Source: Tribonema minus
Taxonomy: Eukaryota; Sar; Xanthophyceae; Tribonematales; Tribonemataceae
DNA: 64,000 bases
NCBI GenBank assembly: GCA_017506865.1
Contig: JAFCMP010000551.1
Coordinates: 310,001-374,000 of the forward strand
Direction: 5' to 3'
Shown here: positions 2,519-51,825 of the stretch, in pieces
Layout: the number at the start of each line of letters is the position of its first letter
Position numbering within the stretch: position 1 is the first letter of the stretch
Made by a program: the position numbers and the translations under genes
The notes under the pieces: generated by a model
Database searches by the model: none
What the model was told of the DNA's origin: nothing
Seen by the model: the letters and a program-made list of their open reading frames with translations, nothing else

Positions 2519-5500
2519 TCAGTATCGCCCGCTGCCCCTGGCCGGCAGCAGCGCCGCTGCCTCCTCCGCGTCGGCGGCAGCGGCGCCGCCGTCGCTGCCG
2601 TACACGCACGACGCCGTGGCGGCAGCTGCTGCCGGCAGCCCCTCCTGCAACTGCAAGTTCAAGTACAACTCTTTCGCGCAGACGGCGCGCTCGTGACGGC
2701 GTCCGTACGCGGCGCCCGCCGCCACTGCTGCGACGAGCGCTGCCACGCCTGCTGCCGCAGTTGTGATGATGCTCAGCCAGGTGTCTTCGTCGTCATCGTC
2801 GCCGCCGCCGCCGCCAAGTGCGAAGAACTTGGAGGACTTGTGCTTGCCGTGGTGCGTCTTGTGGTGCTTCTTGTGTTTTTTGTCGTCCTGTCGCGCGCGC
2901 GCAGCGTGGGTTGCGGTCAGATGCGATGAGAGTGCGCATTCACATGAACGGCGATGCTGCCAGGTAGCAGCGAACGACGCATGTGGTATCCCCGTGATAT
3001 TTCCGTGATGTCCTCGGTGGTGTGCCATCGCAGGGCACACCTCATACGGAAGCGCAGTCATGTTCACCACGGGTGATGCAACCCCGGTGCCAAGAGCTTA
3101 ACAGCTGCATGAACGGTTATGCTGTTGAGCAGCAGCTATCAACGCGCGTGACATTTTTGCAATGCAATTCCGCAGCACGCCGCCAGCACGAGGTACGCCT
3201 TTGGGGCGTTCAAAATCAGTGATGAAAAACGGTACCCTGCGCCTGAATTCACCACGACTGCGCATGGTGCGAGCTTCCGCTTTGCTCATTTTCTGCCATC
3301 TCATCGGGCATGAAAACGCCTGGAATGGGCGCCCCTGCATGCCCGTGCAAGGCAAAGCCGGCATGCATCAGTATAGGGCTTGCATTCATACTGTGATCGT
3401 GTGCGCACAAGTTTTCGACTAATGCCTGTGTGTGTACGGAAGGCAGAGCCAGCATGCTTGCAGACATGCGTGATATTTGATATGTACCTACCCTGTTTCT
3501 CGCGCCATCACCGAGCACTCGCAAAAGCACTTGGGGATATCTTTCAAACGGAAGACTGACACACGTTTTTGACCAAAGTCGTCTGGTTTTGTCTGTCGTG
3601 TATGCGAATCATAGTGACGCAAGAGTCCGACATCAGTGCTTGTGAGCCTGTACCTTCTTCTTGGACTTGTAGTGGTGGTCGCCCTTCTTGTGCTTGAGCT
3701 TCTTGGCCTTGCCCTCCTCTATCGCGACGGCGTGCTTGTGGTGGTGGCCCTGCATGACGCGCAAAGAAGCGAAGGCCAATACATATGATTATACTTCTAC
3801 TTCGAAGTATATGGAAACGAATCAATAGATCATAGAGCTCTACTAATGACAAGGTGTGGTTAACTGCAAGTGCCTTCCACCATAATCATCGTCGCCGCTG
3901 CTGCAGCAATTGGCCACGAGTCAAACATACTTCTACGAAGTATAATATATGTAGGCCATCACCATCAGCATCAGCGTCAGCATCAGCACCAGCAGCAGGA
4001 GAAGCAGCAGCGCGGGGGCGTACTTGTGGTGGTGGCCCTGCGTGAACTCGCAAAGAACAATATACTTGAGGTATCATAGAAGTATGAAGCATCTTTGTCA
4101 GAATCCGCATCAGCACCAAGTCTGCACGCTAGTGCGAACGGCGCATGCCCTGTGCAAAGAGAAGTATGAAGCATCATTATCAGAATACGCATCAGCACCA
4201 AGTCTGCACGCTAGTGCGAACGGCGCATGCCCTGTGCAAAGTCTTGCCAGGGAGTCTGCGCCTGGCTTCGACATGGCAAAACTGCTCAACTGGATCATGA
4301 ACGCCTTTTAAGATTAGAATGATGGCGCAATCACACAACCAAGAACTCCTGCGCCAAATCAAGTCGCCACTCCTGCGCCGAAACAAGTCGCCAACAGTCC
4401 GCCACCACCTACAGTGGTGCACAAGCACCCGCTTGGCACGCGTGTGCTCCAGACCTCCGTACCCCCGTGCAATGACAAGCAGAGGGGGCGACCTACCCCT
4501 AAGCCTAACTTCTTGTCTAACCCTGCTCTGTGCCGCCTACATTGTAGGGCTGCCTACCCCTAACTCTAACCCTTGTTCTGACCCTGCTCTATGCCAACAG
4601 ATGCATCCACTGCCCTGCGCAAAGTACCCGCATTGCGTGCGCATGTGCCTGAAGTTGGGTATGTATGTATGCATGTACCTTGTGTGATGTCTTGCCAGAG
4701 GGATCCGCGCCCGGCTTCAGACCCGAGTGGTCGCGCTTGTAATCGTCCGAACCGGGCCCTACGTACTTCCACGGCAGCGCGTTGATCTCGTACAGCATGG
4801 AGCCCAGCGCCCAGCCAACCTGTTGCGTTTACGCCAGGTGTCAGAGGCATTCATGCAACGTGATGCGAAGTGTCAAAGGCGAGTGAGTGACACATCATTA
4901 CTGGTGTGTCAGCGATGTGGTGGCATTGTTCGGCATTTATACAATACATGACTGTACTGTAGTTCCACGGTAGCGCGTTGATCTCATACAGCATGCAGCC
5001 CAGCGCCCAGCCGACCTGTTGTGTTCATGCGAGGTGTTAGAGGTGTAAAAGTTGCGCGATGTTACAGAGGTGTCAGCAGTGTTGGAGCGTTTGTTCGGCG
5101 TTTACGACTCATGACTGGGCTTTCGCGCCAGCGTGTTGATCTCGTACAGCATTGAGCCCAGTGCCCACCCGACCTGTTGTGTTCACGCGAGGTGTTAGAG
5201 GTGTATAAATTGAGCAATGTTAGCGAGGTGTCGTGTTCATGCGAGGTGTCAGAGGGGTATTGGTCATGCGATGTTAGCGAGGTGTCAAAAGTGTGGTGGC
5301 GTTGTGTGGTGTTCACATGACACATGAGTAGAACAATATATGACGGTGGCGGTATTGGTTACGCGATGGTAAAGGTTTGTCAAAAGTGTGGTGGCGGTTG
5401 TGCGGCGGTTACGACGCGTGACTGTACTGTACTTCCGCGGCAGCGCGTTGATCTCGTACAGCATGGATCCCAGCGCCCACCCGACCTGTTGTGTTCATGC

Positions 5501-8500
5501 GAGGTGTTAGAGGTGTAGAAGTTACGCGATGTTAGCGAGGTGTCAGCAGTGTTGTAGCGTTTGTTCGGCGTTTACGACGCATGACTGGACTTCCGCGGCA
5601 GCGTGTTGATCTTGTACAGCATAGAGCCCAGTACCCACCCGACCTGCCGTGTTCACGCGAGGTGTTAGAGGTGTAGAAGTTACGCGATGGCAGCAACGTA
5701 GTAGCAGTGCTGTGGCGTTTGTTCAGCGTGTACAACACATCACTGGACTGTACTTCCACGGTAGCGCGTTGATCTCGTACAGCATAGAGCCCAGCGCCCA
5801 GCCAAGCTGTTTCGTTCACGCCAGGTGTTGCGAGGTGTCAGAGGTGTATTGGTTGCGCGTTATCACTGGTGTGTCATATGTGTGGTGGCATTGTTCGGCG
5901 TTTACGACACATGACTGAAGTTCCACGACAGCGCATTGATCTGGTACAGCAAAGGCCGTAAACATCCATGAGCCCTGCACGTATTCTCTTTAATTGTAAT
6001 ATCAACAACACAGTGGTCGGTGCTGCCGATAAGCTTGAACGCCAACCTGGAACTCTTGCGTTGTGCCAGGTTCTTCAAAAGTTGAAGCTCGTGCCGAGGC
6101 TCAAACTGTAACCGTCAATGAGCCTTTGGTCATAATCTCGACTCTGACATTAACATGTGATGGTCAGTGTTGCCGATGCATTTTCAACGCCGACAAGAAA
6201 CACTTCTGCCTTGTACTCCGAAGTGACACACACAAATTGTAGTTGGTTATACACTCGAATGCCGACTGGAAAAGTCTTGCCTTGTTGCCCGCCAGGGTCT
6301 TGACAAAGTTGACGCTCGTGTCGAGGCTGAACCGTAGCCGTTGATGAGCCCTGCAGATATTATTCAGACGTGTACAATAACTGCTACGGTGGTCGATGTT
6401 GCCGATATATCATGGAAAGTCTTGCCTTGTACCCCGCCAGATTCTTGACGAAGTTGACGCTCATGTAGAGGCTGAAGCCTTAGCCGTCGATGAAGCCTGC
6501 ACTTATTATCTACAACTGTAACATAAATACTACGTTGGTCAGTATACATTCTACGGTGGTCAGTGTTGCCGTTAAATTCGAATGCCTACTGGGAAGTCTT
6601 GCCTTGTAGCCCGCCAGGTTCTTGACGAAATTGACGCTCGTGTCGAGGCTGAAACTGTAACTGTCACCGTCAATGAGCCCTGCAGTTATCATCTAGGACT
6701 ATAAGATAAATACTACGGTGGTCAGTGATGCCGACAAACTTGTATGTTGACAGGAAAGTCTTGCCTTGTAGCCCGCCAGGTTCTTGACGAAGTTGACGCT
6801 CGTGTCGAGGCTCAAACTGTAACTGCCAATAAGCCTTTAGTTATTATCTAGACTGTAACATAGAAAAATGGTGGTTGGTGTTGCCGATCAAGTTGAACAT
6901 TGACAGGAAACTTGTACCCCAAAGTGACATGCACAAAAAATGTGGTTGGTCACAAACTCAAACGCTGATTGGAAACTCTTGCCTTGTAGCCCGCCAAATT
7001 CTTCACAAAGTTGACGCTCGTGTCGAGACTGAAGCCGTAGCCGTCGATGAGCAGTGTGATGGCGTAGGTCGAGGAGAAGCACGCGCCGAGGATAGCCTTC
7101 GCGCTCAGCGGCTTGCCCAGCAGCTCGTTGCGCTCTTGAAGTTGGTCGAGCGTCATGCTGCAGATCACGCGCGCCTGCGCCGTTCAAAGTCGACATCATG
7201 GAAGGCAGTAAAGTGTAAGTGCTACTTCAAGTATGTGAGTACGTAAGCGCTCTTGAAGCTGGTCCAGGGTCATGCTGCAGTTCACGCGCGCCTGCACCGT
7301 GCGAATTCAACGTCAAACAAGGCAGTATGTAAAATGAAAACGAATCAAAAGATTGTAGAGCTCTAGGTGATAAGGGACCGTTAGCCGCAAGTGCCTTCCA
7401 CCATTAAATACTATGTAAGTATGTATGTGCTCTTGCAGCTGGTCCAGGGTCATGCCGCAGATCAGGCGCGCCTGCGCTGTTCAAGGTCGACATCATGGAA
7501 GGCAGTAAAGTGTAAGTGCTACTTCAAGTATGTGAGTATGTAAGCGCTCTTGAAGTTGGGCCAAGGTCATGCCGCAGATCACACGCGCCTGCGCCGTTCG
7601 AAACCGACATCATAGCAGGCAGTATAGTATTCATATAGTATGTTAAGTACTATGTGAGCATGTAAGCGCTCTTGCAGCTGCGCCGTTAGAAACTGACATC
7701 ATAGCAGGCAGTATAAATGTAAAGTACCATGTAAGTATGTAAGCGCTCTTGCAGCTGGTCCAGCGTCATACCGCAAATCACTCGCGTTTGCGCCGTCCGA
7801 ACCCGACATCATAGAAAGCAGTAAAGTGTAAGTACTACTTCAAGTATGTTCAGCGCTATGTAAGTATGGTCCAGGGTCATGCCGCAGATCACGCGCGCCT
7901 GCGCCGCTCGAAACCGACAACATAGAAGGAAGTATAGTATGTATATAGTATGTCAAGTGCTATGTAGAAGTATGTAAGCGCTCTTGCAGCTGATTCAGGG
8001 TCATGCCGTAGATCACGGGCGCCTGCGCTGCCCGAAAACGGCATTGGAACAGCACAAACATCATCACGCGCAGTCGCTTGCTGATTGGCACACGCCGACG
8101 TCGCCGGGTCACGCAGCCGCAGCAGCGCCCAAGCTACTGAGCACTGAGCAACATAACTGCCACAAGAAAAAGGACAGGTTCGGGTGGGCAGCAAATAGCA
8201 CTGCGCACTCCACAATCCAGAAAAGGGACTCAGACCGGATCTCCCTTGGCGTGGTCCTCCGCTTAGCCAACAGCCACGACACACACCAGAAACGGTGTGG
8301 CGGACGGTGAATGGGCGCTGTACAAAGGCAGGCCCGTGGTGATGCTCCGCACGCGCAAAGGTAGCCAGAGAACGCATTGAACTGGCGGGATCGCCGCGCG
8401 CGAAAGCTTCACAATCTCTCTCTGAAACCCGTACAAACTTGCCCTTCAAACCCCCTGAGCGTGATCTCCACAAACAGGCGCATCAGGCTCACGCGCGGCG

Positions 8501-11500
8501 GTATGTACCCAGATAACATGCAGCGCGCGCTTCGCAAGTGCTCCCTGATACCCCCACGTATCTGTTCCTCAAACCTCCTGCAACTTGATTTCCATGGGCA
8601 GGCCCATGATGCTCCACGCGCGGCTGTACCCGAACAAGGCGTAGCACTGGCGGTTGCGCACGGAAGCGTCACAACTACTCTCCTGCACCCTTACATGCTC
8701 CCGGCACCCCCTGAGTGTGATCTCCACGAGCAGGCTCATCCCATGCGCGGCGGTATGTAGCCAGAGAAGTCTTAGAACTGGCATGCGTGAACTTCGCAAC
8801 TACTCCCTGATACCCTACATACCTGCTCCTCGAACTCCTGCAACTTGATCTCCTCAGGCAGGCCCATGATTCTCCACGAGCAGCGGTACCCGGAGAATGC
8901 GCGTACAACTCTCATGCGTGCGTTTCCCAATTAATTTTCTCTGATACCCCTGCATACCTGCTCCCCGAACTCCTGCAACTTGATTTCTTCAGGCAGTCCC
9001 ATAATGCTCCACGACCAGCGGTACCTGGAGAATGCGTGTCCAACTGTCATTACATGCATTGCCCAATTGTTTTCCTCAGGTAACTCAACGCACCTGCTCT
9101 TCAAACTCCTGCAACTTGATTTCCTCAGGCAGTCCCATGATGCTCCACGCGCGGCGGTACCCGGAAAAGGCGTAGAACTGGCGGTTGCGCGCGTGCGGCA
9201 GCTCCGGCTGGTAGATGCCTGCGAGCGAGCACTGTCCGCTGTGCGCAAAGTTGCACCACGTGTTGAGCTGCTTGTGCAGCAGGGGCTCCACCTGTGTACA
9301 GAGGCGGCGGGGGGGGGGGGGGGCGGGGGGGGGGGGTACGTTGAACAAGGTGATTTTACGAGGTGCATCGGTAGGACCCGGTGATGTTTCAGTCAGCAGC
9401 GGCTCCACCTGGGTGCAGAGGCGGGGGGAGGGGGGTGTTTTTCAATGGTTGTGGTGTCTACCTGTGCCTTGCTAGGTTTTGCGCGCGCGCGTGTGTGTGG
9501 GGGGGGGGAGGGGGGGGGGGGGGTGTGGACGCCTTGATGTTTCATGACTATTTGAAGGTACTGCTGCTTGTAGAACAGCAGAAGGGGGGAGGGGAGGCAG
9601 GGGGCGCACCGAGCTTGTGCAGGAAAGATCAAGTGTCATCAAGTAGAAAGGCGCCATTCAAAACATCAGCCAGGCTGCGATTCAATAATTGATGGACCCT
9701 TGTGCAATTTGTCAGCTGGCACCAACCAGGCGGTAGGCGGTCCCACTTGTTTGATGCTGGCGCGAAAAACAAGGGTGCTTCGGCCGCGTGTGCAGGCGCA
9801 GCTACAAAAGCAGTATCACTTTGTGCACAAATGCGGCACTGCTGTAAGCACCACTATGGAGGTTCTTGTGAGCAGGGGCCTACCTGTTTTGCGGACGTCA
9901 GTGTTGAGGTTATGACGAGCCGACACACACACACACACAAAAGTGCCATCACCAACAGCCTCAATGACAACAATCTATGTCGAAATGCATCAATTCTGGA
10001 CATGACGAGCTGTGCACCAGCTCATGCCAGTGCATGTCGGTAGCGCCCCAGCCTCCACCTGGACCTTTCTCATGCTCCTCGAGGCGGACAAAATCCCCAG
10101 TCAGACCCTACACGTGTCACACATCTATACACATGCATGCACATGCAGCAGCGCCGACACCCCGTTTCTCGCCATTGAGTCAGCATGCACCTGCACGCGT
10201 CAAAGTCAGAATCACAAGTACGCTTCGAAGCACAGGTAGGCGCAACACGCTCCTCAAGCACGGCGCGCACACATGATGACACCCACAACTCGCCGTCGAC
10301 GCGCGCCCTCCCTCTTGAAGTTCGCACGCACCTGCGCTCACACTTGAAGTTCGCACGCACCTGTGCCTTGCACGCGTCGAGTCAGAATCACAAGTACGCT
10401 TTGAAGTACACGTATGCACGACACGCATCTCGAGCACGGCGCGCACATGCGATGACACCTAATAGTCTCCGTACGCGTGCGCGCCCGAACTTGCGCTTGA
10501 ATTTAAAGTGAGCACGCACCTGTGCCTTGCACGTGTCAGACTCACAATCGCAAGTACGCTTGGAAGTACGCAACACGTAGGCGCATCACGCTTCTCAAGC
10601 ACGGTGCGCACATGCAACGACACCTACACCTCTCCATTGGCGCACGCCCGTGCACTTGAAGTTTGCACGCGCCCGCACTCGCACTTGAAGTTCGCGACGC
10701 ACCTGCGCCTTGCACGCGTCGAAATCGCTGCCCTCGAGCGCCGGCACGAGCGCGTACGTGCCGCCGTCCGCGGCCTCAAACACGAACTCCGTGCCGATGT
10801 GCATGCACGCGTCGACCACCTGCGGCAGTGACTGAGCGTCACCGCCATAGTCCGCGGCGGTTACGACAGTTACGGTTTTGCCCTGGCTCTCCTCCGTCTT
10901 CATGGGCATCGGGGCGGAGGCGAGGGCGCGCGGCCGCCACCGCCTTTGGGCGCCTGGCACGTTGGCAGCGGGGAGAGAGTCAGGTGATATGTGTCGGTTG
11001 CGTCATGACATCATGAGCTCGCACGAGTACGTGCGATGACAGTGAGTTGACGGAACCTGGTGGCGCAGCACTCTGCGGCGGAAGAGAGCGCCTTTGCGTG
11101 CGCCGCTTACGCTTTCACAATCATCTTCATGAGTCAAGCACTGCATCATCAGAGGCTGAGCACTGCACGCTCCGCCAATCAGTGTGATTGACAGCAAACA
11201 GTGGCAATGGTGGCAGGTGCGCCTCGCCTTTCGTTGAACAGTGCGGGCGTTGGCACAGCGGCAGAGCTGCGCAGTCGGCAGGCGCCAAATGGCGCAGCAG
11301 CGAGCAGCCAGGAAGAGCAACCTATTGTGAACCTGATGGCGCGTGTGGTACAGTAGAAAGGTTGGACTGACTGGCGTGAACCTGATGTTGGTGGCCGTCG
11401 TTCGCTGTGTTCCTGCAAATGAAGAATTGAATGCGGGTTCGGCACTCTCTCTGAGCGTCCGCACCAGAACATGGCCGGGGAATGTGCCAAATGTGCCATC

Positions 11501-14500
11501 ATGAAGAGGGTCAGCGAGCCAACTTAGGCTACTGCAGTCTCCACTGTGTTGTGCAGCTCAATAGCCACGCTATGCATTCCCAGCCTGATGGCAGCTGGCA
11601 GCCTGAACCGGCGGCGTATCAAGCCAGGCGCGTCACCTTGAGCGGGCACGAAGGTATACCTATGTAGGAAGCACCTAAAACACTCTTCACATACCTGTCT
11701 CCGCATCGCGCGGGTGCATGGGGAAGTACGCGAGCTCCCCCGTGGGCGCCGTGAGGCGCACCATGCGCGCGTCGCCGTCGACGGCGTCCAGCAAGTTGAA
11801 CTCAGAGTTAAATTTGTCACCAACTTCAACTGTAGTGCCCTGAACTTTGGGCGCGAGGGCGGCGGTCATCACGCGCAGCATGCGCTCGTGCGGCGCGAGG
11901 CCGTTGAAGGTATCGACGCACGCCTGCTGCATGCGCAGCTTGGTGGAGGCCTCCCCGAAGTACAGGAAGGAGTGGACGTAGACGTTCCAGTGCTTCTGCG
12001 CGCCGACCTGCAGTGACAAGCACGCCGCAGACGCACTTGTGTCACCTCGCGTCGCGATATAACAGCTGGTCTTGCGCATATGTTCGTGTGTGCATCCATG
12101 CACGGCATACACAACCGGACAACGGTCTCGCTCAAGTACAGTAGGGAGTGAGTGCAGCCGTTCCAGTGCTTCTGCGCGCCGACCTGCGGTGGCGCGCACA
12201 CCGCGGACGCACTCGTGTCACATTCTTGCGTCGCGAAAATGGATGAAACAGCTGGTCTTGCACGTGTATTTCTGTGTTAATAGATGCACATATGCACAGC
12301 TTGGCACACCACCAGCACAGTGCCAGCTGTGCATGGGCGCAAGTACAGTAGGGAGTGGACGTACGCGTTTTGGTGCTTCTGCCGATCTGCATTGGCGTGT
12401 ACATTGCGGATGTGCCATTGACGATGAGTGTAATCAAACAGAGTGGTGATGCTTTGTCGGGTGTGTAAAAAGCTCTGAAAATTAAGAAGTGTGCCTGCAG
12501 GTACAGCACACGCTCATGGAGGGCTGGCTACCCAACGCACCTTACTCAGCAACATGCATGCTTGATGCCGCCGCTGACCAGCTCCACAGTGGCCATCCAT
12601 GTGGCATCGCCCCTACGGCATAATGCTCCATGCAGACCTCACGGAAACAAGGCATGGACGTGCTGGCCATGTCCAGCCCGCCGACAGTTACATTGATTGC
12701 ATTTCGAAGCACATCCACGTATATATTTACGGAGCAGCCCGTAAAGAGTAGCACACACGCGCTCACCTGCAGCTTGAAGAGGTTGCTCATGATGTCCTGA
12801 TCCTGGCGGAAGAACCCCAATTCGCCTAAACGCGCCGCCTATGTTCAATTGCGACTACAACTATATGAACTGTCACTCAAAAAAATATACTTCGAGGTAT
12901 ATATATTTACGGAGCAGCTTGCATAAAGGAGCAGCAGACGCATTGCCCACCTGCAGCTTGAAGAGGTTGCTCATGATATCCTGGTCCTGGCGGAAGAACG
13001 CAATCTGCGTGGAAGCGCCGCCCATGTCCAGCGCGCCGACAGTTACGTTTGAATTCGCCGTGCCGCTGCCGCCCGAGTCGAGCAGCAGGTGGCCCTTGAG
13101 GAAGTTGATGGCGGCCCACGCGTAGATGCCTTCCTCTTCGCCGGACACGACTCGCGCAAAGTCGTACTCAAAGTAGAACGGGCTCTCTTCGCTGTACAGG
13201 AACCACCTGGGGGACGGCGCGTGGGGGAGGAAGGGGGGGGGGGCTGCCTCAGTATACGCATGAGCACTGTTATGCACTAGTAGTAGCATACCATACTGGT
13301 ATGGATTACAGTATAGAGATGTGAAGTTGATGGCGGCCCACGCGTAAATGCCTTCCTCTTCGCCGGACCTCACGCGCGCAAAGTCGTACTCAAAGTAGAT
13401 TGGGCTTTCGTCGCTGTATAGAAACCACCTGGGACATGGGGCACAGGGGTGGGGGGGGGGGGCAAGGGAAGAGCGTGCAAAGTCGTATCGAAGTTGAACG
13501 GGCTCTCGTCGCTGTAAAGGAAGCCACCTGAGAGACATATGCATACAATATGAATGTAACACAAACGGTACCAGGTATGATGCCTGCTGCACTGCTCCAC
13601 TGGCCCGAGGTGGCTGACTGACCTGCAGATATCCAGGTCGCACACCTGCACCTCATGCATGGAAGACCCATTGGAACACCATGTCAACACGCCACCAAAT
13701 GCGCAGCATAAGAAGCCACGGGCTCGCAGCGAGAAGCGCCGCACCTGATGTGGCCCATGACGGGTGCAGCGCTGGCCCGCATCGCAGGAGGCGACTTTGT
13801 GCGATCTGTACTTGCTCAGGCCGCTCGAACTTGAGCTCACTGAAGCACCACAAAACCCCTGTTGAACCAAACACAAGAAACTGTGTCAAGTTCTTACAAC
13901 CACGGACCCCCAGCAACTGCTTAGGCCGCTCAGTGGTGCACCACAAAAAACCCTGCTGAATCAAACAAAAGAAAGTGGGCAAAACTATCAACAACATGGC
14001 GCCCCAAGGGGGGGTCTGCGCCCGGTGCGCGCCGCACCTGATGTGATCCATGATGCGCGCGCGCTGCGCCACGGGCAGCTGGCGCATCCCCCCCGTCGCC
14101 CTCAGGTACAGCGGGAACTTGTAGAAATTGTCCTCGTGGTCCTTCAGTATGTTCTTGGCAAACTCTATCAGCGGCCGCAGGTGCTCGCCAATGTCCCAGG
14201 GGTGCTCCGCGTAGGACGATATGCCCGGGCTCAGCCGGCCCGTCCACGTGTTGCGGCTCTCGGGGAAGGAGATGGGCGGGGGGAGCGACGCAAAGAGGCG
14301 CGGCTCCCACTGGTACACGTGCATGCGCGAGCCGCCGCTGCCGGCGTCGATGATGAGGCCGTGCGCGATGGGCAGCTGCGGCAGCAGCGCTCAGGCGGCG
14401 GTGGCAGCGGCGCCGTAAGCATGGTCTCATCTAACCGTGATTCTAACCCTAGTATTTGGTGAGTGGGCGTATAAGTGGCGTCTACTCAAGTTAAAATTGC

Positions 14501-16337: not shown

Positions 16338-16372
<35 letters not shown>

Positions 16373-35879: not shown

Positions 35880-35889
35880 AGTACTGTAC

Positions 35890-36704: not shown

Positions 36705-36714
36705 AGTACTGTAC

Positions 36715-39615: not shown

Positions 39616-39629
39616 CTTCAACTTTGAAG
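39616..39629. promoter_or_regulatory. Palindrome CTTCAA-CT-TTGAAG between copy C and TAF6
   Basis: Same 6+6 palindrome as in the Armadillo pairs, 82 bp upstream of the copy C start and about 170 bp upstream of the TAF6 start. Confidence 0.6.
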
Positions 39630-39795
39630 ATGTTCGCCAGAGGAAGCTTCTCCCTCAGGACGTCCCTTTGCTCTGCTGTGCCGATGAGGCATGAGGTATA
39701 ATTGAGGTGCAGCAGCGCAGACTCTCTGATGCAAGAAGGACAGCGCCCCCTTCCAGGACATTGAGTCGGAGGAAACTGATCACGTGGGCTGGAGC

Positions 39796-42700
39796 ATGAT
39801 ATCCAGACAGGCGATTGCGCCTGTGGCGGCCGCCTTGGCTGTGGGTCCAGTCAGCAATGATGTGGCGGAGTTTCTGGCGAGCTCTGCCGAGTATCACCTT
39901 AAGGACCTTGTACAAGAAGCCATGAAGGTACTACATCTTGCAAAGAGGTTGGCACGCGTAGGCCTCTGTGCGCAATTCTTAATTCTCTGTGCCGGCATAG
40001 ATGGTCGATTAGATCGAAATCAAGCGTACATGTGCAGCGCTGACATGCAGGCAGGTGGGCATCGCCACTAATGCACATTTTCGATGAACAACTTTACTTG
40101 TGTTGATGTTGAATAATGCTGCTGGGTTTCAAGTTCAACAACAACTGCAATCGCGAGCACTCTACAACATCACCGCAGCCTTGCCAGTGCAGCAGCACAT
40201 GATGGACCAGATATCATCAGGTGTGTCCGATGTGCATACAATTGCCAACATTAAACACCACTAAGCAGCAGCCAGTTTGCCCAAGCTGCGCACTACACTA
40301 AACAGCAGAGATCGTCCACAGATTAGGGAATCGACCCAGTCCACGTCCAACCCAATTGGCACATCAAGCCGCTTTTATCATTATGCATAGCTGTTTGCGT
40401 GGCCAAATTTGCAGCTTTTTTGCAAATGTTGTGGTTTTAGAGTTTACAGCTATTCCTGCGCTTCAAGGCGCGCCAACACCGGCACAATCCTCATCACAGT
40501 CACATCCCAATGTTGTGGGCACTGACAGCACCACTTGATGGCGTGGGAAAAACTACGCACCTGCGGCCGAGCCTGAACCACACATTGTCCAGGCACAGTT
40601 TTATGGCGAAGGCTTTCTTAGCGCAGTCGCAATTGCTAGTGTCGGCAATGCCCCACGCTGCTGCTGCTGCGAAGGTCACCTGACAAATATGAAATCATCT
40701 GCCTTTGTGCAGTGCAGCGGCATGCGGTCCATACCACTTGCGTTTGCCATCGACGACAGCTCTGCGCCGGAGCAGCGAAGCGCGGAGTCATTATACCACA
40801 CGGAACATGTGGTACAGCAGCTGCAGCAGCGCCGTGGCGGCATGAGCCAACGCCTTGGTTCCCATGTCTGCAGCAGGCGGCAATACTCCAGGCGCCACCG
40901 CCTGACCGCCAACAACCTCCCCCATCGCTCGCACCATGCTCCATTCACTCAATTTGACACATCTTCAACAGTGAAGTACCCAATCACGCGCGCGCACGCC
41001 AGATCGCGCGGCGCTCCAAGCGGCGCCGCGTCACCGCGGACGACGTGAACTACGCGCTGGAGATGCGGAGCGTTGAGGCGCTGTACGGCTACCGCGCGTC
41101 GGCGGTGGTGGCGGCGGTGGCGGCGGCGACGGACAAGGGGGGGGCGGGGGGGGGGGCGGGGGAAGATGGGGACTCTGCGACGGGGGATCGGCGCGTCAAC
41201 ACGCTGGAGGTGAGAATATCCATACATGGTTTCATGAATGCAGTCGTGCATGCATGAGCACTGCGTTTTACAGTTCATGCGACATGATCTTGAAACATCA
41301 GTTGTATCAGCGCGCTTGCCCTCGACGGCCCGGCTCTAAACTCTTCTGAGCCCGTTCGTGAAGCTCCAGTTCCTGCTGTTGGCGAAGAGGAGTAGCATGG
41401 ACGACCAGATAATTCTGTAGTTAGTGCTCAGCAGATGAGCTCATTTTCACGTGAGTTCAACAGTGCAGAAAGCACGGTGAGTGCCGCTGTATGCCTCGAG
41501 ACAATGAGGTGGAAGTCAGTGCTCAGCAGGGGAGCTCTTCTTTTTGCATGTAAGTTCACTACAGTAGTGCAGAAAGCGCGATGAGTGCCGCTGCATGCTC
41601 CGGTCTGTCGTCGTAGGGGGCGTTTGTGTGCATGGCATGTTCACTGAAGACCTGGTAGACTAGACGCTGACCTAATGTATGCTGCTTAAGACACTTGCGC
41701 CCCGTGGTTAGGGGCTCAGAAGGCTCGGCCAGTAACAAAACAGAAATGGCTGGAATTCCTTACACCTAACGGAGTTTTACTGTGATGAGATTGAAGCACA
41801 CAACACAACGTAGCAACTCAACTTGGGAACTTCAAGTGTTGCCACAGCTTCGCAACCTCAATCATCACTGGCAAACGTTTCAACTGAGCGCCATCAACAG
41901 TAAAACTCATCGCCTTGCGCCTGAAGGTTGTTGGCGGTTTCAGCACAAATGCCCGCCTCACGCCAGTGTGAAAAACATGCATTTTTGTGATATTGAAATT
42001 GCTGAATCATGACACTGACACCGACCGCCTGAAACACTGTATGCTACTGATATCAACAGCTACGACAGACTCAGCAACCACCGCTGCAACAACAATCATT
42101 CGTGTTCACGTACACATCAACAAGCACGTTCCCACGAAACCCTCCTCTGCGTGTTAACATACACATCAACAAGCATGTCAACACACAAATCCCCCCTCTG
42201 CATGTTCACATGTACATCAATGAGCATGTTCACACGAACCCCTCTTTGCAGGTGGCAAACGCCGGCCTGCCAAAGTGCCCGGTGGAGCCCACATATACAT
42301 CAGCGAGTAGACTCACACGAAACCATGTATACATCAGCGACTAGACTCACACGAACCCCCGCCTCTGCAGGTGGCAAATGCGGGCCTGCCAAAGTGCCCG
42401 GTGGAGCCCACGTGCATGCTGCACTGGCTGGCGGTGGATGGCAGGCAGCCGCGCATACCGCAGAACCCGTCGCGGCAGCAGCGCGCGGCGGCGGCCGCGG
42501 CGGCGGCGGCGGGAGAGATCGATGTTATCCGGGGCGCGCCCACTGGCGAGCAGGAGGTGAGGTTGGGAGTGTTTGCAGCGAACAGTGACGGTTACAGTGT
42601 GACTTTCAATAGTCGCAGTCGATGCCTCTGACTGACACGTTGCGGGCGGGAACTTGAAGCCATTGATTAAATGGGCCACAGCGGCGGCGGGCAGCAGTGG

Positions 42701-45700
42701 CGGCGGCGGGTACGCTCGAGGTGATCCGGACTGAGACCCTGGCAAACAGGAAGTGGGGTTGGGGTGTTGCGGTGGACACTGCCTGTTTCATGGTGTAGAG
42801 GTGTGAGTTAGGCGAGTTGCTGTCAATGACTTTGGTGGGTTGCTGGTGAGACACTGAATGCACCAATGACAAATATGATGAACGCGTGCTGACGCCCTTC
42901 GGCAGTGCTCAGCAACAGCGGTGGAGAGCTGGACGTGTCTGGTGTTGCGCTTAGTGGCCCACAATTGCCTGCCGATGTGCAGCTTCCTAGACAGTACACC
43001 AGCTTCATCCATCGGAGTGACATTTTGGTATCTGGAGTGCAGGGAGGATGTTGACGCGATTATTTCGTGTGCCACAGGCTGTGGCCCACAGCCTACTGAT
43101 TTGCATGTGACTTGAGAGAATCTTAGTGTTTGTCTTGTGCTCGCCAGCAGCGCTCAGCAGCAGCAGCGGGCAGTCAGTTGGGGGCCTGCTTGTTTTCAAC
43201 TGCGCAGTGTGTCTGCCACTCGCGCTGTTTTGTGAAGTTGTCCATTGATCCAGCAGCATGGTGCTTTGTAACGCACCAGTAGCACATCAAGCGCCCCTTT
43301 GTGACGATGCTCACCTACTGCTGCAGGAATTTTTTTTTAATTTCTGATTGACAGACACTTACAGCGGGTGCTCACAGTCGTGGCACCCTGCACAGTGCTC
43401 AACAACAGTGCTCAGCGCCAATGCTAACACGCTTTGCTGCGGGACCAGCTTGAACACACACTTGCAGTAGAGGCAGCATACTCTTTACGAGCAGCAGTTG
43501 GCGCCAGCGCTCGGTAACCGCTGCTTAAATGCCAGTACCAATAAAGCGCAACACCGAACCAGAGAGGGGTTGCCCCAACCCCAATTCCAGGCGCCAATGC
43601 CTGCTGCTGTGAGCGGCAACAATTGCTCGTTGCAGCAGCTGACTTGAACAAACATTTTTGAAGAATGACAAGCAGCACTATGGGCATCGATTTCTCCTTT
43701 TTGCGCACCGCAGTTGAGCGAAGAGAGCCAGCGCTACCTTGACCGCGTGCGCGAAGCAGTGCTCCGGTCGTCCGATCGCTCGGCCGGCCTGGGCCCCGTC
43801 TTTGACAGCCTCAAGAGGGACCCGGGCCTGCAGGAGATACTACCACACATCTGCCGCTTCATCAAGGTGATGCGCCACATTCTGCCATTTTGCCAAGGTG
43901 TACTGCCGCATCTGCCGTTGTGCCAAGGTATAGTGCTGTGCAGCTGCCGCTTCACCGACGCACGCTGCCGCAATCTGCCGCTTTGTTTATGTATGCTGTG
44001 GCGCCTTCAACACTTCATCGGGTAGACTGATGCAAAGCTGCCGCGTCATTGAGTTACACTGCCGCAGCGCACCTGCCGACCTCATTCTTTGACAGTGCAC
44101 AGTCAAAATTGAACCCATCCGTCAACCACGCCTGTTGAACTGGCATGTTGTTGTGCAAATCCGCATGCACGATGCGCAGCAACGCCTCCTTTTTTTTCTT
44201 TCAAATACATCACTTTGAAGTATATTATTTCTTAAACGGGTAGGCCACATGCAGGAGGGTCAACCTGGGGCATTGTCCCAACATCTGTTTTTATAGGAGT
44301 TTACGGCTGCACCGCTAGGCGCAGATGCTCAACGTGAAAGTCCGTGGGTGCTGACATCATTGCGTGGGATAAGGGAGCCCACGTTACGCTGCAGCATCGG
44401 CTCCATTGACATCTGCCTTTGTGCACGATGCCGTGCAATCTGAGGAACCGTATCATGACCCCATGCGCTGTGCAGTCGGCCTTGTCACTGCCCTCTTGCT
44501 CAGCACATTGTGGCAGTTTGCTGCTGACTGTGTGCGGAAGAAGCACTGCCCGACGCCCATCGCCACCGCAGCTGTGCACTGCCTCCCCCGCTGCAAGGAG
44601 CATTGAGCGTTGGTGGCTTATACCCCTTCCCCCATGCTCGGTGCTCGCGTTTCCTCGCTGGATTTTGTTTTTATTGCTCATGTGCATCGTCACCGCCGCT
44701 GTGCGTTGCCTCCTCCACCGCCATAAGCGAACGCAGAGGCGTGCGTCAACGGCAACGGCGCACGGCACGCGCTGTGGCAGCTGGAGCAGCAGCTGATCTC
44801 GCTGCCTGCAAACCGCACTCACCAGCACATGCATCACTGTGAGCTGATGTCAAGCGTCACTCCTGCTGTGCGCTGCATCCTCAATCCCCAGGAGCGCACG
44901 CAGGCGTGCGTCAAGGGCAACGTCAGGCGGCACTCGCTGTGGCAGCTGTAGCAGCAGCTTGTCGCTGCAAACCTCATACACCAGCACATGCATGAAAAAG
45001 TGCTGATGTCAACCGCCACTCCTGCTGTGCACTGCCTCCCCGATCACCAGGAGCGGACGCAAGCGTGCGTCAAGGGCAAGGGCGGGCGGCACTCGTTGCG
45101 GCACCTGTAGCAGCAGGTTGTCGCTGCAAACCTCATACACAAGCACACGCATTACTGAGAGCTGACGTCACTCGCTCGCTCCTGCTGTGCGCTGCCTGTC
45201 CTATCACCAGGAGCGGACGCAGGTGTGCATTGAAGGCAAGGGCGGGCGGCACGCCCCGTGGCAGCTGTAGCACAGTTTGTCGCTGCTTCCAACTTTTACA
45301 CACAAGCACACGAGTTACTGCGAACTGATGTCAATCGCCACTCCCGCTGCCTCCCCAATCGCCAGGAGCGCACGCAAGCGTGCGTCAAGGGCAAGGGCGG
45401 GCGGCATGCGCTGTGGCAGCTGTACGCGCTCATGCGCGCCGCGCGCTGCGTGCTGCTCAACGACCACTTCCACGAGATGGAGGTCTACCTTGCACAGGCG
45501 AGTTGCGGTAATGATCATGCATTGTATGTTACTGAACACCCATGCCTCGGACGCTAAACAGCTTGCACAGAGAGTAATTTGAATACTGTGGATATGATGG
45601 CACTATGTGACTCGTGGCCCATGGCGGCAGCAGCAGCAACCACGATTATTGGTGGAAGGCGCTTGCGGCTAACCACTCCTTGTCACCTAAACCTAGACGA

Positions 45701-48700
45701 TCTTTTGATTCGTCTGCATGTTAACTGCATGTATGGAGGCTTCTGGTGGCCGTCAGAGGGTAGCCGTGCGCAGGCAAACTAAGCTGTCTCTTGCAGTGCC
45801 ACCTTTGATGCCAGATGCTGGGGTATCAAAACTTGCAGTAGCAGATTTGTGTTGTGATGCATGCCTGGTGCTAATTGATGCACTATCATCAGAAATAGGT
45901 GTGTTCTGGCGCTGGAGAGCGCCCTTGTCTTTTGGCGACAACAATGTTTGTGTGCGGCCATGTTGACCAACCTTGAAGTCGTCAAGCTCTTGGTGGTGTA
46001 GGCAGTTGGACGCACATAGGCACAAGCTTGAGTGCGACAGGCGGCAGCAGCGCTGCTGCAGCTGCACCGTACGCCAACGTGCAGCAACGTCAGCAACTGC
46101 GGTGAGCAAGTGCAACAAACCTCAAATTCGCAGCTTGGAGGCCTATCCTCGTGGCTGAAAAATGTACGTAAAGCTGGAGTAACTTATACGGTGTTGGACG
46201 CTCAGAGTGCTCATGTGTGTCTGCCTCAATATTTAACAAAGCGTTGGTGCTATCATTCTTTTTGTTCATGCAGTCAATCATACTGTTGATGATATTGTGC
46301 TCTGCTCCGTATTCAGATCATGCCTGCCGCGATGACAGTGCTCCTGTGTGCAACTCTCGGGCCCGACACCGACATTGACTCGGTGAGTTCCAGCTGCAGT
46401 CAGCGGCGCATAACACTGCTCAAAGTTTGAATACTTTGCATTGCGTTGTGCGCTGCAGTCTGTTCAGTGCACGAGCGCGTCAAAATTGCTGGCGCACAGG
46501 CACATCAGGCGTTAGTTGCAGCACAGAGTCGCAGGGGCACAGCGGCGCACTACGCTGTCTGCTCGGGGGGGGGGAGGGGCTTGCGAGGCCCCCTGCGTTG
46601 ACAGTCGAGCTGTAGCGCACTGGCCCGGAGTGGATGTTGAGCTAGAGCTGCATGCTGCTGTCGGAGAAGTCACTGGACGCGTCGTAGTGGCGCTTGGCTT
46701 ACGCCATGCATTGCCTCGTCTTTCACAAGCAGCCTTCAAGCATCCAATTCCTACTTCTCCTATAATATCTCTCAGCCCAGCCTGTGTCCATGGTGCTCTA
46801 CTTGTCAGGTATCGGTTCAAGCGCTTCGTCTATCGTTGAAGCAAAAGTGCCCTCTCCGCATATCACAATGACAGAGGATATTAAGTCGCAGGAGAAGTTT
46901 AAAAGCCATGACGTCACATGCACTTTATATCATGCGCATTCCGCTGCGCTCTGCTGACGCAGGACCACTGGACGCTGAGGGACATGACTGCCGGCATCGT
47001 CGCGTACGTTTGCAGACGCTATGGCCAGGTGAGAATGCCGCAATTTCTCTTTGGCATTTTTGTTGTTGTTGGCGTTTTCTGTGGCTCACATCTGCATGTT
47101 CGCATGTTCACATACGAGGCATGTGCATGCTGGCACCGTGGTCTTACTGGCGTCCCCGATCGCTGGCGGTTCCACATGAGCATGCGCAATTACTGTGCAC
47201 TGCCTTGTACATGCCTACCTCTGGCGCCCGTACCCCCCCTTTACCCCCACACCCCCTCGCCCTCGCCCTCCCACCCGCTTGATTGCTCGCAGGCATTTCC
47301 AAATTTGCAAGCGGACGTGGTGCTGATGCTCGGTGAGGCTCTGAAGAGGAAGGACTTCAAGGGCACGGTGAGCGCCAGTAGGCCTGTTCCATCAAGTCGT
47401 GCAGTGAGGGCGGGCGCATTTGCATCAGGCTACAACACCTGGTACAGCAATGTCATTCTGTGAAGGACATTTGTGAAGTAGCTGGCACAGCTTTGCACAC
47501 GGAGCGCACCTCCTACTTGCACCCTGTCAGGTTTTGGTGCAACAATCAGTTTCAGGCAGCAATCCTCGTAGTTGTCAGGCGCTCATGAGCCTTCTCAGTC
47601 ATGCTTCATCCCACTTGTCACCTTGTCTGTCATTTATATAGCATTCTTCAGAAGTATCCATTTTTGCGCCTTCACAAAAAATGTAACGTCCATCTGGCGC
47701 CTTTCCAATGCTTCTGTACTTCGCCAACTTAATCTGTAATCAAGCTGATGTCATTGACTAAGCTGCTCAACTTCTGCGCACTGTGACTCTCGGCTGTCAG
47801 GCACTTCCAACCTTGTACGGCGCAATGGTTGGCGTCATAACCCTGGGGTTCCACATCATAGCAGCCGTGCTGCTGCCGCTGCTGAGGCCTCTGCAGGTGA
47901 AGCAAATTTTGTTTCGTTGGGGATGGTGAGGGAGCAATCGCCTAATTGGGGATCAGTGCGCAGAATTAGGAGTGTTGTTGCGGGCACACATGAATTAGCA
48001 TACAGTTCTACTAACAATATGATGACCAATGTACAGCACCGTTCCACACGCCACTGGTACAAGGGTACCTGACTGCTTGGTTCTGAAGCAATTTCTGTTG
48101 CGTGCCGTTGTAGCAGCGCTTATACCTTTACAGGTGCAGGAGAGCTCAACAAGATGGCAGCCACAACAACATATTGTTTTCACGGCATAAATTATTGCGC
48201 TACAGTACCGGCATTGCATACGTAGGCCTATAAAATTGCTGAAAAACTGAAAGAAAACTTGGTAGAAGTGTCTTTCACAGAATGCGTTGCGCGCTAACGT
48301 TGTTCAAGGTATCACTTGCTCATTCTGCAGAATACGCGCTTGCATTGACAATCCGCACGGAAGTGACAGTGAAGGTATCAGCTGCTGCGCCGCAGAACGT
48401 TGATCAGAAGGTACTAGTCCGCCACATGTCACAGCGGCATTCTGGCAGGTTTGTTAGAGTGCATTCGTGTATTGAGGCACTTGGTCAAGTGCCCTCATCA
48501 CTGACATACAATCTGATATTTGAGATGCACAAAAAATTGCTAGTTTGTAGGAAGCGGATGCGTGTGCAAACAGAAAATGTGCAGATCACATGAAGTGCGG
48601 AAATATTTTATTTTCAACAAGACAGCGTCTGTGAAACCTTTGCTACGGACACGATGCAGTCATCACATTTCATTTACATTTTGGTGACATGACGCTGATG

Positions 48701-51700
48701 CCACATTTCACCCACAACAAAGCAAACACAGCACTGACGAGCGCACACTGACCCATGCCCTGACTGGCGACGCAGGCGCACCTGAGTTCTGCTGTGCCAC
48801 AGAGCCTGAACAGCGGCGACGTCATGCCACTGTTGCCACATTTCACCCATGATGATGCAATTACAGCACTGACTGGCGCACACTGACCCACGCCCTGACC
48901 GGCGGCGCAGGTGCTTCTGAGCGCTGCTGTGACGCAGAGCGTTAACAGCGACGCCGCCATGACACATTGCCATATTTAAATCACGATAATGCCATTTCAG
49001 CACTGACCAATTCATACTGATGCTGACCCATGCCCCAATTATCAACGCAGGCGCACCTGAGCGCTGCTGTGGCACAGAGCCTGAAGAGCGGCGACGTCGC
49101 GCGGCGCGAGGAGGCGCTGCGCTGCGTCGCCGTGCTGACGCTCGCCGCCGGCAGTTTTGCGGTGCAGCAGCAGGTACGCCGCCGCCCGGCACGCTGATTA
49201 CTACTGAACAGTGCATTTTCACGTGCCGCCATGCTTGCGATTAATTGGCGCACATTTAATGAAAAAATGTGTGCACCTTCATGTACCGCCATGCTTACGT
49301 TTCATTGGCGCACATTTTATGATGAATGTATGTGCATTTTCACGTGCACGCCATGGCTGCACATTTTCAACTCTACCCTCGTCTCGAAGTCAGCGCAACT
49401 TGCTTTGTGTTCTGTACACAGCAGCAGGTTGTGGGCACCCGGATTGCTGTGCTCAGGGACTGTGGCGTGCCGCTCTATCTATGCCTTGTGGTGCAAAGCA
49501 CATCACCGCCGCAGCTTGCAGTGAGGGGCAGTGTTGACAGCGGCACGGTGTGGTATCCTGGTTCACGGGCCTGAACTGAAAGGCAGCGTTTCTTCAATTA
49601 ACATCATCAATTGAACACCAGCGCTGCATCACGCAAGTGCGCTGCAGTGTCATTTACAACTGTTTCAGCAAGTGGTAGCTGGGTCTCCGTCATTCTCTAT
49701 CATCTCCAACAGCTCTCAATATGTACGTGTGCTGTGCGTCCGCATCAGCAGAAACTGCGCTGCAGCATTAAATTCATTTGTGCAAACTTGAAAGAGCCAG
49801 TTGCGCCGTCATCGCCGTCATCGCTCTCCATCACCTCCAGCAGTTCACAGTACATTTGTACGCTGTACATCCGCATCCACAGGAGAGACTCATACAGGGA
49901 TTGCCCGCGTCCATGGTGGCGCTGAGTGCGGGCGCCTCTGCTACCGCTGTGGCGCAGCTCTCCGACGGCATTGCAGCGGTGCGTACATGCCTTCTGAGAG
50001 AGTTGGATCAGTGTGGTGATGCTCCTGACCTACGCAGGTGGTACATACCAACATGGCATCACATGATGCCTCATGCATATGCCGGCCATCCACAGCTCCT
50101 GGTGGCGCGGAGCTGGCGCATCTTGCTTTGGCGTTGCCTGAAGATTACGAGCCGCCAGCGGTGCTTGGAGTGGACCTGAGTAGCCTTGCAAGTATAGTAT
50201 TATCTGAAGCTTGTTGATCATGCGCAATCACTCCTGTCACAGCACAACTGTGAAGACAAGTGAGCTTTCTAAAAGTTTCACACCTTAGACGACATGATGC
50301 TTTCACGACATAGTCGGTACAATATGTCGCGACGGTGCCGCCAGAAATCATGTCGCGACACAGTCGCGCACCGTCTGCTTAGATCTTGTCGTCTAGACGA
50401 CGGTGTTGACGCACCGTTCATGAGGTTCATGTCGTCCATTCACGACACCGTTGCGCAAGGTTGGCGCTCTTTATGTTGTGTCATGTCGTGTATGTCGTAG
50501 CATGTCGTGTATGCACATCAGTGCACACAGCATTGCTTCCGCGGTGGCTTGCCGCAGTCAGAGCGTATTCGTTATAACGGATGACACTTACGCATGCTCT
50601 GATCTGATCTCTGAGTTACTCACGCCGCATCCGCATCGTGATGATCGTGATGATCCACGTCAAGCTCGGTGTATTCATCAGTTATCCCGAAAAGAGCCTC
50701 CTTGCGTGAGGTAAGAGGTAAGACGCTGGGAGCTGGTGCAGATGTTGGTGGTGCAGCGATTTGCCCCAGATGTGCTCTGCAGTGAATCCAGGGCCCAATC
50801 AGCTAGAGCGTCTGGCAGTGAGACTGTGTTCCAAATCCGTTTCAGCCGCTGTTGGAAACGCGTTTGAGAACATGATGATTACATCAGAGAGTAGGCACCA
50901 CTATGTAGTGTGAATTGGTGTAGCATGACACTACTTTCGCAGCAGTTGTAGCAGCGCAATAGCTGCAACAACCGGCGTCTATCGCACTTCAACTTCTAGC
51001 TTCAACTATGTCGTTCTGTGTCGTTGCTGTCACGACATGGTTGCGTGCTCCTGGCAGAACCTATGTCGTCTAGACGACCATGTCGCGACATGCCTGTCAA
51101 AGCTGATGTCGTCTAGACGACATATGTCGCTTGCCACTGCTGCAACCCCTGTCGTCTGGACGACCATGTCACGACATACCCTCAATGGAACATGTCGTCT
51201 CGACGACTATGTCGCGACATGATGTCGTCTAAGGTGTGAAAAGTTTGGTGCCTACGTCTATACTCTGAAGTTCGCATGTTCGGCGCTTGGACCTGTTCCC
51301 AGAAGCAGTGGTCTTCGGCAATCTGCACTTGACCAGGGCAGGCTGGTGTGCAAAGAAGTAATTATTGTGTAGGTGCTTATGCAAGCAGTGATTGTTGTGT
51401 AGGTGCTTGTGCAAGTGGAAAAACAGTCCTGATGCACGGTTGGAACAGAACTGTACTGGTGCTGGACCAGTCCATGGTGGACTAACAAGAGTAACTTCAC
51501 TGTGGTGAGAACCTGTGATTTGTAGGCACATGCAAAACAGGGTGTGTGGGTATCATACCCTGTCGTATGTATCTGATGCAACAAAGCAGTAGGGATGTGA
51601 AGGCCTTGACAGTAGCTCTCACACTTAACTTTACGGCCTGTGCTGTTGTACTTGCAGGTGAAGGAGGTGTTTGGTGGCACTGTGCTGGAGCCGTTTCTAC

Positions 51701-51825
51701 GCACCGCTGCCGCGCGCTGCCACCAAGACACAAGTGACCTCTGCGCCAGCTGCGACAGCTTGATGCTGGAACCAGCAATACGGAGGAGTCGACAGCCGCC
51801 TGCAGCCCCCCTGCTGCTTTTCTGA
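39796..51825 (+). CDS. TAF6: Transcription initiation factor TFIID/SAGA subunit TAF6
   Basis: Core subunit of TFIID and SAGA; its histone fold pairs with TAF9. Twelve exons: 39796-39927, 41003-41209, 42371-42556, 43714-43866, 45366-45497, 46317-46382, 46963-47028, 47293-47367, 47801-47896, 49051-49173, 49883-49978, 51658-51825. All are phase 0 and give 499 residues. Histone fold in exons 1-2: ISRQAIAPVAAALAVG, EYHLKDLVQEAMK, RRSKRRRVTADDVNYALEM, SVEALYGY. Then the TAF6 signature LPKCPVEPTCMLHWLAVDG (exon 3), LSEESQRYLDRVREAVL and DPGLQEILPHICRFI (exon 4), and the C-terminal HEAT domain (DHWTLRDMTAGIVAYVC, exon 7; LPTLYGAMVGVITLG, exon 9; VKEVFGGTVLEPFL, exon 12). Intron 5 has a GC donor (CAG|GCGAGT). 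A glycine-rich linker follows the histone fold. The start Met fits the family, but an upstream open stretch from about 39757 leaves a longer N-terminus possible. Confidence 0.92.
41377..41620 (+). repeat. Two-copy ~110-bp repeat in TAF6 intron 2
   Basis: Units share GTGCTCAGCAG.TGAGCTC, GTGCAGAAAGC and GAGTGCCGCTG. Contains no recognisable exon sequence. Confidence 0.65.
42090..42370 (+). repeat. Echo array of TAF6 exon 3 acceptor edge
   Basis: At 42241-42290 the acceptor and first about 45 bases of exon 3 are repeated (TTTGCAG|GTGGCAAACGCCGG for VANAGLPKCPVEPT). Upstream, short units with ACATCAACAAGCA and CACACGAA.CC recur every 40-55 bp, as in the intron just before the real acceptor. Confidence 0.87.
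42650..42775 (+). repeat. Echo of TAF6 exon 3 donor edge
   Basis: Copy of the exon 3 tail and donor: GGCGGC run, GTGATCCGGACTGAGACC, then CAAACAGGAAGTGGGGTTGG, matching the real GCGAGCAGGAG|GTGAGGTTGG. The copied donor has lost a clean GT context. Confidence 0.8.
43867..44095 (+). repeat. Echo array of TAF6 exon 4 donor edge
   Basis: Four short decayed copies (about 40-60 bp steps) of the exon 4 end CATCTGCCGCTTCATCAAG|GTGAT, such as CATTCTGCCATTTTGCCAAG|GT and CATCTGCCGTTGTGCCAAG|GT. The first two directly follow the real donor and each keeps AAG|GT. Confidence 0.85.
44540..45365 (+). repeat. Echo array of TAF6 exon 5 acceptor edge
   Basis: Five copies of intron end plus exon start. Acceptor positions are about 44595, 44727, 44892, 45051 and 45212 before the real one at 45366; steps are 132, 165, 159, 161 and 154 bp. 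Copies 3-5 repeat GAGCGNACGCAGGCGTGCG and on to about GTGGCAGCTGTA, then switch back to intron (AGCAGCAG.TTGTCGCTGC). It is the cleanest array in the window. Confidence 0.92.
45644..45713 (-). repeat. Dispersed ~72-bp repeat, copy 3
   Basis: Inverted copy of the repeat at 3814 and 7336, here in TAF6 intron 5. In minus reading it begins with a possible hairpin, AGACGA...TCGTCT, and ends CAAGCGCCTTCCACCAATAA. Confidence 0.7.
48690..49050 (+). repeat. Echo array of TAF6 exon 10 acceptor edge
   Basis: Copies with acceptor GACGCAG|GCGCACCTGAG at about 48778 and GGCGCAG|GTGCTTCTGAG at about 48910 precede the real edge at 49051, about 135-140 bp apart. Each carries the codons for AHLSAAVAQSLKSGD in decayed form. 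A fourth partial intron unit lies near 48700-48770. Confidence 0.87.
49680..49882 (+). repeat. Echo before TAF6 exon 11
   Basis: Two copies of the intron end: CATCTCCAAC...TGTCCGCATCAGCAG-like (ending about 49752) and CATCACCTCCAG...CATCCGCATCCACAG (ending at the real acceptor, 49882). Only the intron part is clear. Confidence 0.65.
50279..51238. mobile_element. Non-autonomous hAT-like DNA transposon (960 bp) in TAF6 intron 11
   Basis: Terminal inverted repeats start CACACCTTAGACGACAT (17 identical bases; 20 of 21 match if extended). The 8-bp target duplication AAAAGTTT lies at 50271-50278 and 51239-51246. Inside are subterminal palindromes of two kinds, GTCGTCTAGACGAC (and one-base variants GTCGTCTGGACGAC, GTCGTCTCGACGAC) and TGTCGCGACA, clustered near both ends; such repeats are where hAT transposases usually bind. 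No transposase frame is present. The 8-bp duplication points to hAT or P-like superfamilies, hAT being more common. Intact ends and a perfect duplication suggest a fairly recent insertion. Confidence 0.86.

Follow-up and report, generated by a model that had tools for sequence, protein, structure and literature searches.

Introns carry copies of the adjacent exon edges

In a 64,000-bp stretch of the Tribonema minus nuclear genome (contig JAFCMP010000551.1, positions 310,001 to 374,000; here called the window), the introns of three conserved, mutually unrelated genes were found to contain tandem, decayed copies of the exon edge nearest to them. The genes are an apyrase (APY), a ResIII/RadD-like helicase (HEL) and TAF6 (TAF), in which 22 exons and 19 introns (26,312 bp) were modelled, with exon borders predicted from homology and splice consensus. 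Such copies, or echoes, were detected in the edge's own intron at 18 of 42 predicted splice edges and were confirmed as real and far above chance. We consider it probable, at roughly two chances in three, that introns at this locus have grown by repeated duplication across splice junctions in which the live edge has continued to take part.

In the edge test, the outermost 50 bp of an exon were aligned to the intron or flank next to them, and this was done at 44 exon ends. Since the upstream ends of HEL exon 1 (E1) and TAF E1 are not known splice sites, the denominator is 42 rather than 44. Four controls were used: the intron on the far side of the same exon, the remaining introns, all introns in antisense, and 8.8 kb of presumed intergenic sequence. 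The shuffles used preserve base composition only. Passing edges scored 32 to 90, fifteen of them at least 39 and three near the threshold (APY E4 donor, 35; APY E5 acceptor, 32; APY E7 donor, 33). Maxima in the controls were 27 on the other side of the same exon, 29 in other introns, 28 in antisense introns and 27 in the intergenic sequence, none of which reached a passing score. Echoes were more frequent at acceptors (13 of 20) than at donors (5 of 22; Fisher p = 0.012). A 19th edge, the TAF E3 donor, was seen by BLAST when the intron was included, its exon part alone scoring 25, below the line. The start and stop ends of coding sequence carried no echoes (0 of 13, versus 18 of 42 splice edges; Fisher p = 0.0025); these 13 non-splice ends were positioned within a few bases, and the ARM3 start and ARM5 stop were left out. 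Among the 24 edges lacking a clear echo, the 21 with a modelled intron still favoured that intron (mean z 1.33 versus 0.36 elsewhere over 435 comparisons; p = 0.003), as expected from older, decayed echoes.

A self-BLAST of the window (E < 1e-3) gave 81 direct matches that were local, at less than 4 kb; 79 fell within the three intron-bearing genes, including the intron upstream of APY E1. The remaining two lie at 51.06-51.22 kb, 1.9 kb beyond the last modelled exon, and no local direct match was found at 26.6-41.4 kb or 51.3-64 kb. Fifty-two copies were aligned at the 19 edges, and 47 of them cross the splice point; the 52 include three consisting of the intron part only (one a C-run) and one of the exon part only.

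An initial annotation of this DNA had reported about 20 edges and 60 copies; the number of edges was near the mark (19), and the copies proved somewhat fewer. Its description of introns in three conserved genes carrying copies of the nearest exon edge is borne out by the 18 edges and the empty controls. Its further statements that each copy stays on the same side as its source edge, and that acceptor-side copies join the intron end to the exon start while donor-side copies join the exon end to the donor, agree with our alignments (18 of 18 edges and 47 of 52 copies spanning the junction, respectively). The alignment of introns against their flanking exons that it had proposed was carried out here for the three genes and showed enrichment restricted to adjacent edges. 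The exon models stop at about 49.2 kb, and the range claimed, up to position 51825, was covered to that point.

Structure of the arrays and intron coverage

Successive splice points within arrays are spaced 99-231 bp apart in 42 of 47 cases and 289-475 bp apart in the other five. Units reach 15-126 bp into the exon, the split between units being approximate since several aligned rows overlap or leave gaps. The earlier claim that exon interiors are uncopied was only roughly correct, with the qualification that units enter the exon to this depth and that two of the 14 exons tested match the adjacent intron in their central 50 bp (APY E5, score 42; HEL E3, score 82). Local repeats make up 7987 of the 26,312 bp of intron (30%), with six introns at zero, and none of the 11,200 bp taken as intergenic. 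They account for 98% of the 2163-bp APY E6-E7 intron and 85% of the 1919-bp E5-E6 intron. Introns with an echo (n = 12) are longer than those without (n = 7; p = 0.011). The arrays are tandem series of similar units, as in an intronic minisatellite, and they contain adjacent direct duplicates that hold an intron end with an exon start, or an exon end with an intron start.

The arrays of APY lie on the minus strand. Its acceptor arrays belong to E1 (14331-15273; five copies spaced 166-183 bp apart), E2 (13101-13536; two copies and the live edge, with an exon part of 106 bp), E3 (11958-12410; two copies), E6 (7129-8044; seven copies, one of them intron part only) and E7 (4763-5954; six copies, one of them exon part only). 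The E5 acceptor has a copy at 9277-9435 with an exon part of 15 bp, and its own-intron score of 32 is the weakest pass. At 4011-4270, an E8 acceptor copy (4011-4057, with the live edge at 3723-3768) is found together with a weak E7 donor copy that overlaps an 82-bp direct pair at 4078-4241. On the donor side, the E2 region (12652-13049) comprises a junction-spanning copy at 12720-12847, an exon-part fragment at 12652-12694 and the live edge; E4 has two copies at 10192-10722, in which the exon contributes about 20 bp and the exon score is a weak 35, and E5 has three at 8327-9193. The E6 donor array (5965-7052) holds five aligned copies of a GC donor, all of which retain the GC, and is separated by approximately 10 bp from the E7 acceptor array. 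Several units of the E1 array (14443-15155) contain a telomere-like TTAGGG or GGGTTAG motif on the minus strand.

The arrays of the other two genes lie on the plus strand. In HEL, the E2 acceptor array (18814-19294) has three copies by alignment, the farthest of which lies upstream of this BLAST cluster. The E3 acceptor array (21455-22132) includes a 91%-identical copy at 21756-21901, with an exon part of 126 bp, and an older 69% match at 21455-21569, while the E6 acceptor array (26278-26547) has one copy with an exon part and further intron-part matches. In TAF, the E3 acceptor array (42101-42411) consists of one copy with an exon part (42230-42292) and 51-bp intron-end repeats, and the decayed E3 donor copy (42485-42790) matches by BLAST at 74% over 113 bp (E = 7e-9). 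The E5 acceptor array (44675-45424) has four copies spaced 155-167 bp apart and the E8 acceptor array (48688-49098) two, spaced 135-140 bp apart.

Divergence of the copies

Mismatch between the copies and the live edge was 9%, 5% and 21% at codon positions 1, 2 and 3, respectively, and 21% in the intron part, approximately the pattern that a dead copy should show when compared with an exon under constraint. Where an array holds at least three copies, the changes found in a single copy were distributed over the codon positions as 22:16:22; since they ignore codon position, the copies look dead once made. Variants shared by at least two sequences per state were distributed as 4:0:16 (p = 2.5e-5 versus one third), and the shared and private patterns differ (Fisher p = 0.0015). 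The shared variants are of the coding type and so arose in a coding lineage, that of the live edge, which was therefore source or exchange partner more than once. A coding function of the copies was at first hinted at by a synonymous excess (57 to 77 differences). This was set aside because arrays of one or two copies, in which exon and copy changes are inseparable, were mixed into that count. HEL E3 carried no codon phase in this count or in that of the private changes.

Proposed mechanism and alternative explanations

We propose that introns lengthen when units spanning a splice junction, most of them 100-230 bp long, are duplicated in tandem again and again. Duplication over an acceptor would leave copies of intron end and exon start upstream, and duplication over a donor would leave copies of exon end and intron start downstream; one intact junction would survive either way, so that the mRNA can remain unchanged. 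Copies may arise by unequal exchange or template slippage, and selection on the exon half would keep the live edge similar to its copies, allowing the array to continue recombining. Junctions may also start duplications more readily than intergenic DNA, with transcription- or splicing-linked breakage as one candidate cause. Intron growth by repeated local duplication across junctions, as the initial annotation had suggested, is upheld for this locus by the confinement of echoes to adjacent edges, the near-full coverage of some introns by arrays and the greater length of echo-bearing introns.

Whether junctions are special is a separate matter. With families grouped by us from coverage clusters and the TAF E3 donor left out, 18 of 22 repeat families touch an edge (18 passing edges and four families off known edges). 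Under random placement, the probability of this result varies with the null chosen, the lowest value being 2e-13 and the highest 1.2e-3; the latter comes from the most generous null, in which intron length is halved and detectability doubled. Copies are expected on the intron side because only there does one intact junction survive, and for this selection suffices. Selection alone does not readily account for the absence of echoes in the intergenic stretches and at the 13 coding start and stop ends. We nevertheless keep only tentatively, at about one in three, the wider proposal that splice junctions are preferred sites of recurrent tandem duplication and that introns genome-wide grow inward from both ends, because the intergenic control is small and lies within a cluster of related genes. 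If this proposal were true, introns would be dated fossil archives of what their exon borders once looked like.

The strongest competitor, which we judge unlikely, requires no junction-specific process: tandem duplication would be neutral and random, hits on exons would be purged, ancestral introns would have been so short that most surviving duplications crossed an edge, and conservation of the exon half would prolong the visibility of edge copies. Such a filter accounts for the intron-side position and the single intact edge, the conservation of the exon half is real, and some introns could have begun small, as the E6-E7 intron with its 98% local repeats illustrates; the excess at edges also falls to P = 0.0012 with halved introns and doubled detectability. 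What it fits poorly is the complete absence of such repeats from 11.2 kb of intergenic DNA, and of echoes from the 13 coding start and stop ends, where duplication might be equally harmless. It is improbable that the copies are useful, whether as selected spare or recursive splice sites or as regulated alternative exon starts. The splice dinucleotide is intact in 44 of the 49 copies that cover it, compared to 36.6 expected at mean identity, and well-flanked copies retain 58 of 61 AG letters and 19 of 19 GT/GC letters. Retention of the pooled CAG and GT letters is slightly higher than at codon positions 1 and 2 (p = 0.044), and exons beginning with GT (AG/GT) make up 6 of 13 echo-bearing exons versus 0 of 7 others (p = 0.05). 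Against usefulness, this retention is near that of codon positions 1 and 2, and the private changes follow no codon-position constraint. No sign of purging of decoy sites was seen, which is odd if decoys compete with the true site. Because of the AG/GT excess and the kept splice letters, recursive splicing at copy AG/GT sites is possible.

Less probable still is the Rogers model, in which an intron is born when a piece of exon containing AGGT is duplicated and the repeats would be relics of intron origin rather than of growth. Tandem duplication and AG/GT borders are common to both. Rogers units are exonic, however, and would place an echo of the downstream exon at the intron 5' end; the units here combine intron and exon, no purely exonic unit with AGGT and no intron 5' end resembling the downstream exon start was observed, and no aligned copy lay at the opposite end of its own intron when whole introns were searched with each exon start. 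An assembly or amplification artefact has a negligible probability. The copies have diverged from the live edge by about 10-20%, and changes of the coding type fall on other branches than those of the neutral type, a pattern that misassembly does not create.

Several observations weigh against duplication across junctions as we propose it. Four repeat families lie off known edges (4486-4595, 17429-17666, 41419-41598 and 51058-51221). The intergenic control was chosen by us, is small, and is situated inside a gene-family cluster with a possible history of its own. Acceptor copies exceed donor copies, even though one might suppose decoy acceptors lying upstream to do more harm. Of the 60 private changes, 21 were synonymous and 39 were not; the synonymous share of 35% mildly exceeds the 26% that chance would give. 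Mismatch at positions 1 and 2 combined (7%) falls a little short of half the value for third positions (21%); weak constraint may act on the copies. The array alignments showed no consistent, steady gradient of age with distance from the edge, and in the APY E7 acceptor and E6 donor arrays the most distant copies are closer to the live edge at several shared sites than are nearer copies. Serial ageing by simple one-by-one copying at the edge does not fit this pattern. The resemblance of the farthest copies to the live edge means that exchange along the array is needed, and copy order is better explained by exchange, whether inside an array or between alleles, than by strict addition of one copy after another. 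Breakpoints are uncertain, with copies 10-20% diverged.

Gene models and other features of the window

The apyrase/ENTPD gene (2522-14375, minus strand) was assigned from Pfam, structures and splice sites read: seven joined exons match Pfam GDA1_CD39 (2.8e-74), and ENTPD/apyrase structures were also matched. Exons E1 to E8 of the edge test are 14375-14038, 13206-12951, 12007-11695, 10953-10703, 9291-9094, 7174-6983, 4819-4679 and 3749-3654; the acceptor of the exon at 10953 is uncertain, and the last exon, down to 2522, lies outside the edge test. The helicase gene (16552-26675, plus strand) rests on a ResIII match (5.8e-12), a weak RadD match (7.8e-4, without any single significant stretch) and splice sites. 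Its exons E1 to E6 are 16552-16655, 19210-19414, 22007-22216, 22710-23018, 24396-24467 and 26523-26675, the last being beyond the reach of database matches. This gene probably holds further undetected exons. The plus-strand segment 17742-17969, with the peptide GTLVLVHR, is likely to be a further helicase exon; it has no Pfam match alone and stands outside the edge test.

The TAF6 gene (39740-49173, plus strand) matches structures of TFIID subunit 6 (3.9e-29) and TAF6_C (5.3e-19), with splice sites read and a coding score for 49045-49173. Exons E1 to E8 are 39740-39927, 41003-41209, 42371-42556, 43714-43866, 45366-45497, 46963-47028, 47293-47367 and 49051-49173; the start of the first is uncertain, and the last is outside the displayed aligned part. 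Four echo-bearing exons (APY E4, APY E8, HEL E6 and TAF E8) rest on an open frame, coding score or consensus, with no database match shown covering them. GC replaces GT at three predicted donors (6982, 22217 and 45498). The repeat families at 17429-17666 and 41419-41598 contain donor-like GTGAGC or GTGAGT and may mark undetected exons.

Approximately seven armadillo-repeat-like coding regions occur elsewhere in the window (31669-33137, 33684-35150, 38074-39454, 54393-55878, 56301-57751, 59367-60795 and 61281-62730). They are in both orientations, similar by eye and without evident introns; several are broken into successive open reading frames (ORFs) by stops or frame changes, and Pfam matches are weak or absent. 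The pentamer TGTAA is a green-algal signal; it was absent within 400 bp after five of six ARM-gene ends and present once after the sixth. The minus-strand ORF at 36001-36786 resembles the C-terminal part of a non-LTR (long terminal repeat) retroelement protein; 36001-36642 has no Pfam match, and no relative of the ORF was found in viral contigs. No relatives were found in the viral contigs or prokaryote genomes searched, no RNA family reached the gathering threshold, and ARAGORN in its bacterial setting predicted no tRNA. The dinoflagellate spliced-leader pattern was no more frequent than chance in the window.

Comparison with known systems

To our knowledge, intron lengthening other than by transposon insertion is poorly documented. 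At this locus the source of much of the intron DNA can be read directly, and it is the intron's own borders. If the arrays prove general, they would point to a duplication process tied to splice junctions, provide a within-genome record of past exon sequence, and offer a natural setting in which to study how the spliceosome passes over numerous intact decoy sites close by. Intronic minisatellites likewise consist of tandem units subject to unequal exchange, similar to the units of about 100-230 bp seen here, but they are not known to be normally anchored on splice junctions with an exon part in each unit.

Tandem duplication across an intron-exon boundary has been described as a single case, in a potato RdRp gene that gained an intron by it (PMC4974935). 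That duplicate resembles our acceptor echoes in joining the 3' part of an intron to the 5' part of the next exon with acceptor signals. As reported there, however, one duplication in one gene gave a new intron and inserted exon sequence, whereas here many copies at approximately 19 edges in three genes, donor units among them, lie inside introns. Tandem duplication of AGGT-bearing exon segments is named as the only intron-gain mechanism demonstrated in vivo in a review of the subject (Yenerall and Zhou 2012, PMC3443670). The arrays share with this Rogers-type gain both tandem duplication and the capacity of splicing to spare the coding sequence; they differ, on that account of it, in that existing introns lengthen rather than new ones arising from an exonic segment, and in that the units include intron DNA.

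Introner elements, as characterized for Amoebophrya (PMC7789003), also use repeated sequence as a source of intron DNA. They are described there as dispersed families with inverted repeats and 3-5-nt direct repeats at their borders, while each array here appears private to one edge, exon-end queries scoring at most 29 in other introns. Far self-BLAST matches in the window, taken as counts, numbered 12 direct and 22 inverted. The initial annotation's remark that no described mechanism matches was too strong, since one case of boundary duplication has been published (PMC4974935) and introns are known to be gained through tandem duplication (PMC3443670). No description of systematic edge-anchored arrays was found among the open-licence papers listed, judged by title and the start of the abstract, and their systematic form, built one edge at a time, seems to be new.

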